The position numbers and the translations under genes are program-made. From assembly GCF_000226255.1 (NCBI RefSeq), contig NZ_AGFG01000022.1, forward strand, positions 1 to 48,727: a stretch of DNA of 48,727 bases, in the 5' to 3' direction. The first letter of the stretch is position 1; each line of letters starts with the position of its first letter. The DNA comes from Desulfovibrio sp. A2. GTDB lineage: Bacteria; Desulfobacterota; Desulfovibrionia; Desulfovibrionales; Desulfovibrionaceae. This document shows positions 1,590-43,069 of this stretch, piece after piece. The notes beneath the pieces are model-generated. The model was not told where the DNA came from. It ran no database searches and saw only the letters and a list, made by a program, of their open reading frames with translations.

Positions 1590-1650
1590 ACGGCAGCCGT
1601 TAGACGAGCTTGCGAGCCTTACGGATGGCGATCGCAGAGCGGCTACCGCC
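1590..1650. repeat. structured nested repeat, copy 1
   Basis: About 60 nt placed exactly between the arms of an older hairpin (CCAAGG 1584-1589, CCTTGG 1651-1656). The core hairpin pairs 1599-1605 (GTTAGAC) with 1616-1622 (GCCTTAC). It has a GA at 1606-1607 facing a GA at 1614-1615 and a GCTTGC loop. The tail GGATGGCGATCGCAGAGCG matches copy 4 (41572-41625) at nearly every position. This is one of four copies in the window. Confidence 0.75.
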
Positions 1651-1715
1651 CCTTGGAACCCCACATTCTGTATTCTCGTAATGCCCAAGAAACACAAATG
1701 AAAGTTTTTGGGGGA

Positions 1716-1766
1716 GCTTTAGCCGTTATGCGAGTCTTCGAGCATTACGGATAAAGACAGCAAAGC
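1716..1766. repeat. structured nested repeat, copy 2
   Basis: Same core as the other copies, with different stem bases: GTTATGC (1725-1731) pairs with GCATTAC (1742-1748), again with GA/GA at 1732-1733 and 1740-1741. The outer stem CTTTA (1717-1721) pairs with TAAAG (1752-1756), whereas copies 3 and 4 use GC-rich outer stems. The insert splits a G-rich tract (TTTTTGGGGG before it, CGGGGGTGCGGGGG after it). Confidence 0.7.
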
Positions 1767-1774
1767 GGGGGTGC

Positions 1775-1868
1775 GGGGGAGGAGACCCTTTTGCGGCAGA
1801 TGTTAGCCGAACGCGAAGCGTGAGGCTTACAGATGGCGACCGCAGCGCGTCAAAAGGATCCCTCCCCC
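1775..1868 (-). terminator. interrupted GC-rich hairpin downstream of glgB (likely terminator)
   Basis: The left arm (GGGGGAGG at 1775-1782, then GACCCTTTT) pairs with AAAAGGATC and CCTCCCCC at 1852-1868. The loop is occupied by repeat copy 3. It lies 57 nt beyond the glgB stop and could end transcription of glgA-glgB. Confidence 0.5.
1793..1851. repeat. structured nested repeat, copy 3 (longest apical stem)
   Basis: It sits exactly in the loop of the 1775-1868 hairpin. GTTAGCC (1802-1808) pairs with GGCTTAC (1824-1830), GA 1809-1810 faces GA 1822-1823, and an extra apical stem ACGC-GAA-GCGT (1811-1821) extends the hairpin. Outer TGCGG (1792-1796) pairs with CCGCA (1840-1844). Confidence 0.75.
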
Positions 1869-1924: not shown

Positions 1925-3853
1925 CTACCCCGGCATCAACGCCACCCCCGCCAGCGGCGGCAGGGTAAGCACAAGGTGGTGCCCCCCGCTCCACTCGTCG
2001 GTGCGGGCCTGCAATTCGCCGCCGTTGCCCACGTTGGAGCCGCCGTAATACTCGCTGTCGGTGTTCAGCACCTCGCGCCACGTGCCGCCCCTGGGCGCGG
2101 GCACCCGGTAGTACTGGCGCACCACGGGGGTGAAGTTGAACACCCACAGCACGGGCGGGGCGCCGTCACACTGACGCACGAAGCTGATCACCGAGCCGCC
2201 CCAGTCGGAAAAGTCCATCCAGCGAAAGCCTGTCCAGTCATGGTCGTGCGCGTGCATGGCCGGTTCGCGCAGCAGGATTCCGTTCAGGTCGCGCAACAGG
2301 GCGTGGATGCCGCCGTGCGCGGGGAACTGGTACAGGCACCAGTCCAGGGCCTTGCTTTCGTCCCATTCGTTCCACTGGCCGAACTCGCCGCCCATGAACA
2401 GCAGTTTCTTTCCCGGATGCGCCCACATGTAGGCGTACAGCGCGCGCAGGCTGGCCTGTTGCTGCCACGCATCGCCGGGCATCTTGGACAGCAGCGCGCC
2501 CTTGCCGTGCACGACTTCATCGTGCGAGAGCGGCAGCACGAAATTCTCGGTGAAAGCGTACAGCAGCGAAAAGGTCAGCGCGTTGTGGTGGTAGGCGCGG
2601 TGCACCGGCTCGTGCCGGAAGTAGTCCAGCGTGTCGTGCATCCAGCCCATGTTCCACTTGAAGGTGAAGCCGAGCCCGCCGGTGTACACCGGGCGCGACA
2701 CCCCCGGCCACGCCGTGGATTCTTCCGCGATGGTCATGGCGCCGGGGAACTGCCCGTGCACCACCACGTTCAGCTGGCGCAGGAATTCCACGGCGTCCAG
2801 GTTCTCGCGCCCGCCGTGCTCGTTGGGCAGCCAGTCGCCGTCCTCGCGCGAGTAGTCGAGGTAGAGCATGGAGGCCACGGCGTCCATGCGCAGGCCGTCG
2901 ATGTGGAATTCGCGCAGCCAGTACAGGGCGTTGGCCAGCAGGAAGTTGCGCACCTCGTGCCGACCGTAGTTAAAGATGAAGGTGCCCCAATCCGGGTGCT
3001 CGCCCCGGCGCGGGTCCAGGTGCTCGAACAGGGCCGTGCCGTCGAAGCGGCCAAGGCTCCAGTCGTCCTTGGGAAAGTGCGCGGGCACCCAATCGAGAAT
3101 GACCCCTATGCCCGCCTGGTGGCAGCGGTCCACGAAGCGCTTGAAGTCCTCGGGCCTGCCGTGGCGCGACGTGGGCGCATAATAGTGCCCGGTCTGGTAG
3201 CCCCACGACTGGTCCAGCGGGTGTTCCGCCACGGGCAGCAGTTCGATGTGGGTGAAGCCCAGGTTCTGCACGTGCGGGATAAGCCCGTCGCCCAGTTCGT
3301 CCCACGACAGAAAGGGATGGCCGCCCACGCCCGAGCCGTCGGTCTTGCGCTGCCACGAACCTGCATGCACCTCGTAGATGGACACGGCTTGCCGCAGCGG
3401 CGGCCCTGCCTCGACGCGGCGCTGCATCCACTCGCCGTCGGACCATTGGTAGTTGTCGATGTCCCAGGCCACGGCGGCCACGCCGGGCCGCATTTCGGCA
3501 TACAGGGCGAAGGGGTCGGTCTTATAGACGATGCGCCCGCCGCCGTTGTCGCCGTCACCGGTGCGGATGCCGAACTTGTACAGCGCGCCCTTGCGCATGC
3601 CCGGCACGAAGGCCGCCCACACGCCGGAAACGCCCACGGGGTACAGCGGATATTCGCCCCAGCGCCAGTCGTTGAAGTCGCCCACCAGGTGCACCTCGCG
3701 GGCGGAAGGAGCCCACACGGCCACCCGGTAGCCTTCCGCGCCGTCCTGCGCCATGGGGTGCGCCCCGAGTACCCGATAGAGGTCCCAGTGTTCGCCCTTG
3801 CCGAACATGTACAGGTCGAAGGGCTCGATGAAGGCGGGGTGGGTAAGCTGCAT
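1925..3853 (-). CDS. glgB: 1,4-alpha-glucan branching enzyme
   Basis: A 642-residue GH13 protein that transfers alpha-1,4 glucan segments to alpha-1,6 branch points during glycogen synthesis. The N-terminal beta-sandwich (CBM48-like, about 20-120) carries the WAPSAREVHLVGDFNDW signature. The catalytic TIM barrel follows, with GLRMDAV (nucleophile Asp324), TIAEES (general acid Glu at 377-378) and LPLSHDEVVHGK (transition-state Asp at 445). The length is typical of the shorter branching enzymes. It ends VALMPG, followed by the repeat-rich gap. It lies 75 nt downstream of glgA on the same strand, so the two are probably co-transcribed. No clear ribosome binding site precedes the ATG, but the N-terminal sequence matches the family. 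Confidence 0.95.
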   Translation of the reverse strand: MQLTHPAFIEPFDLYMFGKGEHWDLYRVLGAHPMAQDGAEGYRVAVWAPSAREVHLVGDFNDWRWGEYPLYPVGVSGVWAAFVPGMRKGALYKFGIRTGDGDNGGGRIVYKTDPFALYAEMRPGVAAVAWDIDNYQWSDGEWMQRRVEAGPPLRQAVSIYEVHAGSWQRKTDGSGVGGHPFLSWDELGDGLIPHVQNLGFTHIELLPVAEHPLDQSWGYQTGHYYAPTSRHGRPEDFKRFVDRCHQAGIGVILDWVPAHFPKDDWSLGRFDGTALFEHLDPRRGEHPDWGTFIFNYGRHEVRNFLLANALYWLREFHIDGLRMDAVASMLYLDYSREDGDWLPNEHGGRENLDAVEFLRQLNVVVHGQFPGAMTIAEESTAWPGVSRPVYTGGLGFTFKWNMGWMHDTLDYFRHEPVHRAYHHNALTFSLLYAFTENFVLPLSHDEVVHGKGALLSKMPGDAWQQQASLRALYAYMWAHPGKKLLFMGGEFGQWNEWDESKALDWCLYQFPAHGGIHALLRDLNGILLREPAMHAHDHDWTGFRWMDFSDWGGSVISFVRQCDGAPPVLWVFNFTPVVRQYYRVPAPRGGTWREVLNTDSEYYGGSNVGNGGELQARTDEWSGGHHLVLTLPPLAGVALMPG

Positions 3854-20884: not shown

Positions 20885-21034
20885 TAGGGGCTGTTTCTAA
20901 AGTAGGATTTTCGTTCGTTGGCGAGGAAAACGAGCCTGCCATGAGGGAATATACTCTTATCGTATTTGACCGACATGGCAGGCGAAGTTTGCCGAAGCCA
21001 ACGGGCGAAAAGACAATTTAGAAACGGCCCCCTA
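20885..21034. mobile_element. MITE-like palindromic element A (uninterrupted), TA-flanked
   Basis: 150 bp with imperfect terminal inverted repeats of about 55-60 bp. TAGGGGCTGTTTCTAAA at the left faces the complement of TTTAGAAACGGCCCCCTA at the right, and CCTGCCATG (20935-20943) faces CATGGCAGG near 20974. The 30-nt centre is AT-rich. Both ends are TA, the target duplication expected of IS630/Tc1-mariner type transposition. It has no coding capacity. It lies between convergent mlaA and the cupin gene, and its right end supplies the TA of the cupin TAG stop. Confidence 0.75.
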
Positions 21035-21349
21035 GATGGGAGGGGCGATAACGACAACAACCCGCATCTCGGTCTTCGCCCGCACGCCATGCGGCACGCG
21101 GATTTCCGAGACCAGCATGTCGCCCTGCTTCGCGGGGATGGCCGCGCCGTCCGCGCCCAGGAATTCGCCCTCGCCCTCGATGACGGTGATGGCCAGTTCC
21201 CCGTCGATGTCATGGCTGTGCACGGGCAGTTCCTGGCCAGCCTTGAAGTTGAAATTGATGATCTTGAAGTTTTCCGAATCGTGCACCAGGTTCATGGCGA
21301 ACCCGGCATCCTTGAAGGTACGCATGTCGTCGAGACGGATGTGGCGCAT
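21032..21349 (-). CDS. small single-domain cupin protein
   Basis: A 105-residue cupin_2 barrel. Motif 1 is PVHSHDIDGELAITVIEGEG (about 42-61), with metal-ligand candidates His44, His46 and Glu51. Motif 2 includes KQGDMLVSEIRVPHGVRA, with His87. Such proteins are cytoplasmic metal-binding folds with varied roles, so the substrate cannot be stated. The start at 21349 has AAAGGAG 7 nt upstream. The reading frame ends at a TAG that coincides with the terminus of MITE element A. An FNR/CRP-type palindrome lies 116 nt upstream, so oxygen, nitrosative-stress or cAMP-type control is possible. Confidence 0.85.
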   Translation of the reverse strand: MRHIRLDDMRTFKDAGFAMNLVHDSENFKIINFNFKAGQELPVHSHDIDGELAITVIEGEGEFLGADGAAIPAKQGDMLVSEIRVPHGVRAKTEMRVVVVIAPPI

Positions 21350-41217: not shown

Positions 41218-41300
41218 GGTGCGGGGCTGGCCTGCGTATCCGCTGTGCGCCTTTTCCTCACTTCCCTTTCCCGCGCGTCCCTGCCCCCTGCTCATTCAAC

Positions 41301-41331
41301 GCAAAAGGCCCCGTCGAAGCGGGGCCTTTGC
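41301..41331. terminator. hairpin after the nuclease gene
   Basis: AAAGGCCCCG pairs with CGGGGCCTTT over a TCGAAG loop. T residues are short on the plus strand and slightly longer on the minus strand, so it may work for either convergent gene. Confidence 0.65.
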
Positions 41332-41377
41332 ATTCATGCCTTGGCGAGTTCAAACGAACCTCGGCCGATATTTTCAA

Positions 41378-41510
41378 CTGCGCGCGGCAGTATTTCCGTT
41401 TTCCGGCAAGGAAGACAAGCCCGCCACGCAGGGCGCATACTCCGGCGTATGTAACCGAAGTGGCGGGCGCAGTCTGACGCAGCCGGAAACGGAAAGACAA
41501 CGCGCGCCAG
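41378..41510. repeat. large intergenic hairpin repeat, member 2
   Basis: A 133-bp imperfect palindrome. The outer CGCGCG arms are followed by TTTCCGTTTTCCGGC pairing with GCCGGAAACGGAAA. Internal loops follow (CAAGGAAGACAA against GCAGTCTGACGC), then GCCCGCCAC pairing with GTGGCGGGC, then an apex GCATAC-tccg-GCGTATGT. It has the same order of stems and loops as 27993-28092. Its right edge touches MITE element B. Confidence 0.7.
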
Positions 41511-41707
41511 GGGCTGCTTATAAATTAGGATTTTTGTTCGTTGGCAAGGAAAACGAGCCTGCCATGAGGGAGTGCGGCAGCCGTTAGGCGAGCTTGTGAG
41601 CCTTACGGATGGCGACCGCAACGCGTACTCTTATCGTATTCGACCGACATGGCAGGCGAAGTTTGACGAAGCCAACGGGCAAAAGGCCAATTTAGAAGCA
41701 GTCCCTA
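41508..41707. mobile_element. MITE-like palindromic element B, carrying a nested repeat
   Basis: 200 bp homologous to element A (20885-21034) along both arms: GGGGCTGCTTATAAATTAGG at the left, and CCTGCCATGAGGGA and CATGGCAGGCGAAGTTTG around the centre. It has CA at the left end, where A has TA, and TA at the right. A 54-bp insert (41572-41625) absent from element A sits in its loop. Its right-end TA forms the first two bases of the symporter TAG stop. No coding capacity. Confidence 0.75.
41572..41625. repeat. structured nested repeat, copy 4, inside MITE element B
   Basis: 54 nt with GTTAGGC (41583-41589) pairing with GCCTTAC (41600-41606), GA at 41590-41591 facing GA at 41598-41599, and TGCGG pairing with CCGCA outside. 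Element A gives the empty-site comparison: GAGGGA-ata-TACTC there, GAGGGA-insert-TACTC here. Confidence 0.75.
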
Positions 41708-43069
41708 GAAGACCTTCAGGCCCTTGAGCAGCACCAGCAGCACCAGCACCGGGCTCACCCAGCGCACCACCGTCAGGAACGCGCCGACGATGGCCCCGTT
41801 GAGCAGTTGGCCCCGGTTGGACAGTTCGGTCTTCACGTTGGCCGCGCCCCACACCCAGCCCGCGAACAGGCAGATGAAGATGCCGCCCACGGGCAGCAGC
41901 ACGTTGGACGACAGGAAGTCATACAGGTCGAACACGGTCATGCCGAAGATCTTCACGTTGGCCATGGTGGACATGGACAGCGTGGCCGGAATGCCGATGA
42001 TGGCCAGCGTCACCGAGGTCAGGATGGTGGCGCGCTTGCGCGGCATGCCGAACGATTCGGCCAGCCAGGCCACGGGCACTTCCAGCAGCGAGAGCATGGC
42101 CCCGGTGGCGGCGATGGCGGTGAGGCAGAAGAAGATGACCATGAACACCTGGCCGCCCGGCAACGAGGTGAACACGGCGGGGATGGTCATGAACAGCAGG
42201 CTGGGCCCGGCGCTGGGCTCGAAGCCGAAGTTGAACACGGCCGGGAACACCGCCATGCCCGCCAGGATGGAGATGGTCAGGTCGCACAGCATGACGCGGG
42301 TGGCAGTCAGCGGAATGTCCTGGTCGTTGCGGAAGTAGCTGCCGTAGGTGGTCATGGTGCCCATGCCGATGGACAGCTTGAAGAAGGCCAGGCCCAGCGC
42401 CATCAGGATGACGCCGGGGGTGATCTTGCTGAAGTCGGGGGTGAACAGGAAGGACAGGCCCTCGCCCGCCTTGGGCAGGGTGAGGCTGCGCGCGCACACC
42501 GCCACCAGCAGCAGGAGCAGCACGGGCATGAGCACCTTGGTGGTGCGTTCGATGCCCTGGGCCACGCCCGCGATGATGATGATGCTGATCAGCACCAGCA
42601 CGCCCCACTGCCACAGCAGCGACTGCACCGGGTCGCCCACCAGCGCCTCGAAGGCCTTGGCGGCCACGCCGGGGTCGGTGGTGGCGATCTCGCCGGACAG
42701 GGCCTTGAAAATGTAGGCGAACACCCACCCGGCCACGTCGGTGTAAAAGCCCATGATCAGGAACGCGGCCACCACGCCCGAAAGGCCCACCAGGTGCCAG
42801 GGCTGGCCCTTGGGCGCAAGCTGGCGGAAGGTGCCCACCGCGTTGGCCCGGGCGCGGCGGCCCAGCATGATTTCCGATATCATCACCGGCAGGCCGACCA
42901 GCAGGGTGGCCAGCACGTACACCAGCAGGAACGACGCGCCGCCGTTCTGGCCGGTAAGGGCCGGGAACTTCCAGATGTTGCCGAGGCCCACGGCCGAGCC
43001 GAGGGTGGCGGCGAGCACGCCGAGGCGCGTCGCGAAGCCGTCGCGGGCGGTGGTGATCTGTTTCGCCAT
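41705..43069 (-). CDS. sodium-dependent symporter (SNF/NSS family)
   Basis: A 454-residue LeuT-fold transporter with about 11-12 helices. The first unwound helix carries LAATLGSAVGLGNIWKFP (about 19-36), the sodium- and substrate-binding signature, followed by GGASFLLVYVL and GLPVMISEIMLGRRA. Bacterial members import amino acids with sodium; the substrate cannot be assigned. AAGGAAA lies 9 nt before the ATG at 43069; upstream starts are unlike the family. The stop TAG at 41705-41707 coincides with the end of MITE element B. It is single and convergent with the nuclease gene. Confidence 0.92.
   Translation of the reverse strand: MAKQITTARDGFATRLGVLAATLGSAVGLGNIWKFPALTGQNGGASFLLVYVLATLLVGLPVMISEIMLGRRARANAVGTFRQLAPKGQPWHLVGLSGVVAAFLIMGFYTDVAGWVFAYIFKALSGEIATTDPGVAAKAFEALVGDPVQSLLWQWGVLVLISIIIIAGVAQGIERTTKVLMPVLLLLLVAVCARSLTLPKAGEGLSFLFTPDFSKITPGVILMALGLAFFKLSIGMGTMTTYGSYFRNDQDIPLTATRVMLCDLTISILAGMAVFPAVFNFGFEPSAGPSLLFMTIPAVFTSLPGGQVFMVIFFCLTAIAATGAMLSLLEVPVAWLAESFGMPRKRATILTSVTLAIIGIPATLSMSTMANVKIFGMTVFDLYDFLSSNVLLPVGGIFICLFAGWVWGAANVKTELSNRGQLLNGAIVGAFLTVVRWVSPVLVLLVLLKGLKVF

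Follow-up and report, generated by a model that had tools for sequence, protein, structure and literature searches.

A ~57-bp hairpin unit of Desulfovibrionaceae spacers that appears to spread by insertion at the tips of other fold-backs

The window analyzed here is the whole of a 48,727-nucleotide stretch of Desulfovibrio sp. A2 (contig C62 of the 4.15-Mb genome G000), and its GlgB is a 96% match to Nitratidesulfovibrio oxamicus. As the first-pass annotation had pointed out, three copies of a short hairpin, which we call the A unit, lie between the glgB and asparaginase genes, and a fourth lies near 41572; matches to the core pattern GTTANNCGAN{2,14}GAGNNTTAC (at 1599, 1725, 1802, and 41583, all on the + strand) and to R1, the covariance model of the A unit that we used for the genome scans, agree on these four. 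The core pattern had 0 matches in 100 shuffles of the window, which rules out a chance origin. Copies 1-3 share one insertion of ~354 bp (window ~1543-1895), which we call element C, and copy 4 lies in element B, which also occurs in the window without an A unit. The features are as follows:

399-1370, - strand: Asparaginase_2 protein gene, neighbor of copies 1-3
1543-1895, + strand: element C, composite ~354-bp insertion with imperfect inverted ends CAGGTTGTTGACAAA / TTTGCCAGCAGTCTG, holding copies 1-3 (ends approximate)
1589-1642, + strand: A unit copy 1 (R1 70.1 bits, plus pattern), first hairpin of the ~354-bp insertion
1715-1768, + strand: A unit copy 2 (R1 68.3 bits)
1774-1791, + strand: host hairpin of copy 3, 5' arm (78% complementary inverted repeat I1)
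1792-1850, + strand: A unit copy 3 (R1 59.1 bits), tip of a purine-rich host hairpin (CCCTTTT-A-TCAAAAGGATCCC)
1852-1869, + strand: host hairpin of copy 3, 3' arm (inverted repeat I1)
1925-3853, - strand: GlgB gene, neighbor of copies 1-3
20887-21032, + strand: element B without an A unit, TA flanks (ends by eye)
41398-41490, + strand: B-like hairpin without an A unit (fold z -7.4), adjoining the A-bearing element B
41510-41705, + strand: element B with copy 4, inverted ends GGGGCTG..., TA (or CA) flanks (ends by eye)
41573-41626, + strand: A unit copy 4 (R1 75.2 bits)

The A unit is a family of hairpins of 52-60 nt. From the outside in, the stem has 5 outer pairs, a G.A mismatch, 4 pairs (C-C-G-T), a T.T mismatch, and 4 pairs, and its inner part has a tandem GA/GA, 2-4 pairs, and a small loop; a 3-bp mini-hairpin follows. 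The core outlined in the annotation is part of this structure, and the true stem is longer than it described. In the window we read the same stem triplets as it did, GAC/GCC with one A-C mismatch in copy 1 and TGC/GCA, GCC/GGC, and GGC/GCC in copies 2-4, and the outer stems of the copies change together in the way that it noted.

A looser pattern has 49 matches in the genome and 0 when read backwards. Allowing up to 3 substitutions around those matches gave 65 copies, of which 62 were aligned (alignment A1, leaving out L143_3100-, which is misaligned, L119_2249-, which has a one-base deletion, and 1 duplicate). Under a structure written by hand, 92.0% of the cells in these 62 copies pair and both-sided changes are found in 14/20 pairs, in a total of 127 cells compared to 45.8 ± 8.2 after shuffling. 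None of 500 shuffles reached the observed value of any of five covariation measures, with the caveat that kinship alone can beat such shuffles on some measures and rarely on pair counts, and pairing falls to 41.6% or less when the partners are slid along the alignment. The annotation had asked whether stem changes are any better paired than in shuffled controls, and its proposal that selection acts on a folded single strand is strongly supported by these counts together with the conserved mismatches. Pairing is weakest in the outer stem, where one pair is standard in only 33/62 aligned copies. RNAalifold, unaided, recovered 13/20 pairs and missed the mini-hairpin. Single-sequence folding is less clear: with short flanks, copies 1 and 2 show no clear gain over shuffles (z -1.5 and -0.2), and the minimum-energy structures of copies 1 and 4 leave part of the A stem unused. 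When the host stems are included, copies 3 and 4 reach z -5.4 and -5.0, and the opposite strand gives much the same (-5.9 and -4.0).

The pairing of the A unit and its three non-Watson-Crick features are conserved. Over 121 copies (alignment A3), the T.T is kept in 114/121, the GA/GA in 109/121, and the G.A in 97/121, figures that lean high because the copies were found by the motif's own model; the facing GA dinucleotides had been described as constant, and they are retained to this extent. Among 2169 cells on the A strand there are 80 G.U vs 22 A.C, and this strand (+) folds better than its complement in 110/121 copies. Since 46/80 of the G.U cells sit in two pairs, part of the G.U excess is probably inherited within subfamilies. 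A GNA center is found in 41/59 odd-length apical loops.

Four copies is the correct count for the window, and the total is much larger: R1 found at least 121 in the same genome among the best 150 of 2060 candidates scored, and relatives also match, so the search does not return only the four sequences that the annotation had listed. All 8 genus genomes have matches (lower-bound counts from the best 71 candidates per genome), as do at least 13/39 genomes from other genera of the same family, and 0/32 genomes from other families of the order matched, each among the best 71 candidates per genome. Across the class, R1 matches (E<=1e-4) were found in at least 128/348 genomes and at least 22/59 genera among the best 16 candidates per genome, and all of the 128 matching genomes listed belong to the same family, Desulfovibrionaceae. 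Plasmid records had no match to an 81-base A query.

The gene neighborhoods of the copies were taken from the predictions of a codon-usage caller rather than from curated annotation, with background gaps from the same loci. By these predictions the 121 copies form 81 clusters, of which 54 lie between tandem genes, 21 between convergent genes, 1 between divergent genes, 1 inside a predicted frame, and 4 at contig ends, while the background gaps of more than 100 bp (n=231) are 157 tandem, 38 convergent, and 36 divergent. Thus, 80/81 clusters are outside predicted genes, two of them overlapping the end of a gene. Between tandem genes, sense copies number 44 and antisense copies 39, and relative to the nearest stop codon the 121 copies are 56 sense, 61 antisense, and 4 without. 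When classes of arms and tips are assigned by approximate patterns, antisense orientation to the nearest stop is found for 34/36 A1 and A2 arms of element B, and sense orientation for 20/23 A3-type arms and 11/16 copies at purine-hairpin tips. A single motif retained in either orientation is evidence against its acting in the adjacent mRNA. A function in the mRNA of the neighboring gene is not supported overall by the tandem-spacer counts, and a role in the host mRNA as the sole cause was rejected on the balanced orientations.

Element B at 41510-41705 abuts, with its 3' end, the TAG stop (41705-41707, - strand) of an SNF transporter gene, and the 3' end of the A-less element B at 20887-21032 abuts the TAG stop of the gene at 21032-21349 (- strand). 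One B site is empty in G002, with a 3-bp overlap containing TA, and at the same site G007 holds a B with a different arm; TA or CTAG is found at many, not all, other B ends. The TA target duplication that marks an IS630-type MITE was therefore found for element B in one empty-site comparison. In element B, arm A2 adjoins a stem instead of occupying a tip. In a sample made up of A-bearing loci, a stop codon is found no more than 25 nt from the 3' end of B in 31/38 motif matches and from the 5' end in 0/37, and 5/7 of the misses are 5' ends also caught by the pattern. The stops at these 3' ends (n=31) are 23 TAG, 4 TAA, and 4 TGA, in one polarity. Because B abuts all three stop types in one polarity, symmetric CTAG targeting is disfavored, and CTAG targeting as a full account of B placement is weakened. 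Among the 350 predicted genes of these loci the stops are TAG 190, TGA 100, and TAA 60; TAG as the commonest stop is unexpected for a GC-rich genome, in a sample that is biased to A-bearing loci and rests on our own gene caller.

Element C is missing from the orthologous glgB-asparaginase spacer in 5/7 relatives (G003, G004, G005, G006, and G007). The remaining two relatives have other A-bearing inserts there, with 3 R1 matches in G001 (L256:764-962) and 1 in G002 (L257:529-582), as if this spacer were a favored insertion site. From the comparison of the relatives' spacers, a TCGCT duplication at the element C of the window is only a candidate. Related copies of element C are found in L258 to L262. 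At L261 (G007), a ~24-bp terminator-like hairpin stands on each side of C (~564-587 and ~935-958), and in 6/7 relatives the left and right alignments to this site overlap on one 23-24-bp hairpin (the overlap is longer in L272, where the alignment runs on, and the seventh relative, G000 (L278), aligns by its flanks only). Because the alignments overlap there, the hairpin is single in those relatives and double around C. As a target duplication, these ~24 bp would be unusually long as well as palindromic.

As a discrete module of ~56-58 bp, the A unit is carried by some alleles and lacking in others, between conserved flanks at or next to the tips of host hairpins, and it occurs both ways round and interrupted by an A-type arm in its own apical loop. 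Four host hairpins gave 23 scored alleles across species, of which 13 are A-less hairpins and 10 have A at the tip; among the 10 A-bearing alleles, 1 is inverted, 2 have an A-type arm nested in A's loop, and 1 is truncated. At site 1 (L137), 5/7 relatives have a clean CC-tip hairpin, G000 and G005 have A, and G001 has an inverted A. At site 2 (L137, scored leaving out G003, G006, and G002), A is lacking in G001 and G005 and present in G000 and G004, and G007 has A with a nested A-type arm. Sites 3 and 4 (both L122) were scored leaving out G001, G005, and G002, whose sequence stretches fall short of the site: at site 3, G003, G004, and G006 are A-less, G000 has A, and G007 has A with a nested arm, and at site 4, G003, G004, and G007 are A-less, G000 has A, and G006 has a truncated A. 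The nested arms in G007 match R1. In G000 at site 4, A lies two bases 3' of a two-base loop with no base lost and no visible duplication, and at the other three sites the two bases that form the loop in the A-less allele are not seen next to A. The distal hairpin of element C provides a fifth host: A is plus-oriented in L258 and in the window, L259, L260, and L261 (copies of one element in one genome) carry it inverted, and L262 has an empty CC tip. We read the A-less tips as probably the older state because they are clean and symmetric, and the choice between gain and loss depends on that symmetry.

Presence and absence at orthologous sites, as looked for in a mobile hairpin of the mitochondrial type, were therefore found. 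The constraint on a fold reported by the first-pass annotation holds, and what it missed is the mobility of the hairpin, which is present or absent at orthologous hosts and nested, and that the three-copy cluster is an insertion (C), absent in 5/7 relatives. The site-1 unit of G005 and the site-2 unit of G004 are identical (56/56), and the inverted site-1 unit of G001 is 56/59 identical to the site-2 unit of G000; because of these near-identical units at neighboring sites, sites 1 and 2 are not independent, and copying of units between neighboring hairpins is likely. The purine-rich host hairpins (L137, L122, and orthologs) are near-perfect palindromes even though the arms on either side differ from species to species, as if the one had served as template for the other. 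In the window's own genome, the flanks of L198:2537-2590, L188:2633-2686, and L210:2542-2596 resemble A inside A, in the stem and not in the apical loop. A dispersed repeat of several hundred bp at L132 (~2276-2996) has partial matches in all 8 genus genomes.

Across the genome, 27/121 copies are flush with a host stem of at least 10 pairs, compared to a permuted mean of 4.7 and maximum of 10 (500 permutations); the remaining 94/121 are not flush on a stem of that length. The duplex energy of the 30-nt flanks is -20.7 kcal/mol vs -14.7 ± 0.44 when permuted (200 permutations, lowest -16.0). Because random positions in this GC-rich genome average -18.8 ± 6.1, nearly as low, only the tail of the flank energies is telling, and 14% of copies fall below the 1% quantile of the random-position energies. 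For 32 copies from other genera, flush tips are not clear; the longest stem is 12 with a looser offset, judged with no permutation.

No named family was known to the first-pass annotation for this consensus, and in agreement with this, the window has 0 Rfam matches at the gathering scores of the families. This outcome also bears on a group IIC intron, which would have a domain V and a reverse transcriptase. At E<=10, the spacer 1450-1924 has 0 matches and the spacer 41218-41710 has 4, none of which attains its family's cut-off: on the - strand istR and RsmY (~41303-41401), over a terminator-like hairpin, asX2 at 41271-41327, and mir-2830, the only one to overlap copy 4 (17.4 bits, cut-off 70, E 1.2). 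Identity with an Rfam family was rejected on these scores. The core order of integron attC sites is 5' RYYYAAC ... GTTRRRY 3'; by inspection A has GTTARRC on its 5' arm and GYYTTAC on its 3' arm, so attC was rejected by core order. The Y1_Tnp domain (PF01797), searched in the window's own genome only, had no match (0/1), with matches in 5/14 controls, and REP/RAYT membership was rejected on this result. The DDE_3/IS630 transposase (PF13358) was found in 0/8 genus genomes (controls match in 3/14, over the cut-off in 2), and an IS630-type (DDE_3) mobilizer present today was rejected accordingly. The GT(A/G)G head is absent from the 60 columns of alignment A3, and units start with GCGG (36), GCCT (28), or AGCG (19) in the 121 copies.

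Bacterial spacers are commonly filled by small palindromic repeats, and for most of these we know of no established means of movement. No title or abstract opening in our literature search, which covered subscription papers and preprints thinly, names the A element. REPs with RAYT are short extragenic imperfect palindromes, often with more than 100 copies per genome and with compensatory changes (PMC2817692). The A unit shares these traits, being extragenic, palindromic, and high-copy (121 copies, with 1/81 clusters inside a predicted gene), and the Coxiella REP also has GA-GCTTGC-GA in its stem (PMC2817692). In contrast to REP/RAYT, the modeled A unit has no GT(A/G)G head, its genome has no Y1_Tnp match, and A sits on the tips of other hairpins. 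The pneumococcal BOX, RUP, and SPRITE elements are likewise structured and intergenic, enriched between convergent genes, and inserted into one another, and BOX is modular with a length that varies between strains (PMC3049150); going by these descriptions rather than by sequence, A is set apart by inserting at hairpin tips and by its fixed mismatches. Mitochondrial double-hairpin elements, GC clusters, and RHEs are tiny mobile hairpins as well, GC clusters merge and shuffle, and for Allomyces a lack of duplications at the flanks is reported and an RNA intermediate has been suggested (PMC2800124, PMC4478555). A differs from them in being bacterial, in having the tip of another hairpin as its target, and in its covarying stem with fixed mismatches. 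Palindromes are also the insertion targets of REP-targeting ISs such as IS1397, but those have a transposase and A is too short to encode one (PMC1525189). The IS630 target papers by Tenzen are cited as references in PMC2170065.

We read the A unit as a mobile hairpin because its hosts have A-bearing and A-less orthologs, because it is found inverted and nested, and because C is absent from 5/7 relatives. It appears to spread by insertion at the tips of other fold-backs, its own kind included, and we consider it probable, with moderate confidence, that A is a mobile hairpin, small and non-coding, which reaches the tips of hairpins through a putative trans factor and nests into many-armed elements. 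In such a process, a putative factor supplied in trans would recognize A as a folded single strand (probably the one shown here) and would attach it, as ssDNA or via RNA, to hairpin tips, and repeated tip landing would yield nested, many-armed spacer elements (B, C, and others). Some units may have been copied between neighboring hairpins. We put forward only tentatively, as possible and rather doubtful, a specific version in which a dedicated recombination system of the Desulfovibrionaceae reads A by its T.T and tandem G.A and inserts ssDNA- or RNA-derived A into extruded hairpin tips, making hairpins grow by nesting; the target would be chosen by shape rather than by sequence, and the enzyme would belong to neither the Y1 nor the DDE_3 family.

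Template switching during replication, or gene conversion, could instead copy hairpins onto tips and keep their arms complementary with no dedicated enzyme, making A a passive by-product. The near-perfect host stems whose sequence changes between species would fit, as would the one insertion without visible duplication, the near-identical units on neighboring hairpins, and the lack of a Y1 (own genome) or DDE_3 (8 genus genomes) match. However, such correction should remove internal mismatches, and the T.T (114/121) and GA/GA (109/121) persist; one module dominates, and matches are limited to one bacterial family in the class sample, and we regard this account as unlikely. A functional structured RNA, such as a 3'-end stabilizer, terminator, or processing signal, maintained for the host and spread by ordinary spacer duplication, would fit the strong covariation, the exclusion from genes (80/81 clusters), the near absence from divergent gaps (1 vs 36/231 background gaps), and the sense bias of A3-type arms (20/23) and purine-hairpin-tip copies (11/16). 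Against this, orientation is balanced over all copies (44 vs 39 in tandem spacers, 56 vs 61 to the nearest stop), arms A1 and A2 of B are antisense in 34/36, which places the GA/GA motif outside that mRNA, and A is missing at orthologous hairpins of close relatives, all of which leaves a structured RNA quite improbable in our view. It is highly improbable that A never moves alone and that its units only form arms in ordinary MITEs moved by IS transposases (B, with a TA duplication, and C, whose duplication is longer): B and C do have inverted ends and empty sites, with TA at B and the two ~24-bp terminator-like hairpins around C at L261, but at four sites A alone differs while the host hairpin and flanks are conserved, A is found in several different hosts, and the DDE_3 transposase is found in 0/8 genus genomes.

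To return to the mobile hairpin, a unit of ~57 bp that is seen with and without insertion, on other tips and in its own loop, makes shape-directed insertion directly testable, and its nesting suggests a route by which many-armed spacer elements could grow. The R1 covariation model provides a handle for finding the factor that moves A. An exact-pattern search also placed an A unit in one viral contig (L314:2804-2857), preceding a tail-fiber gene. There, the upstream frame (2429-2818) stops at a TAG inside the A unit, with GTTAG supplying the stop.
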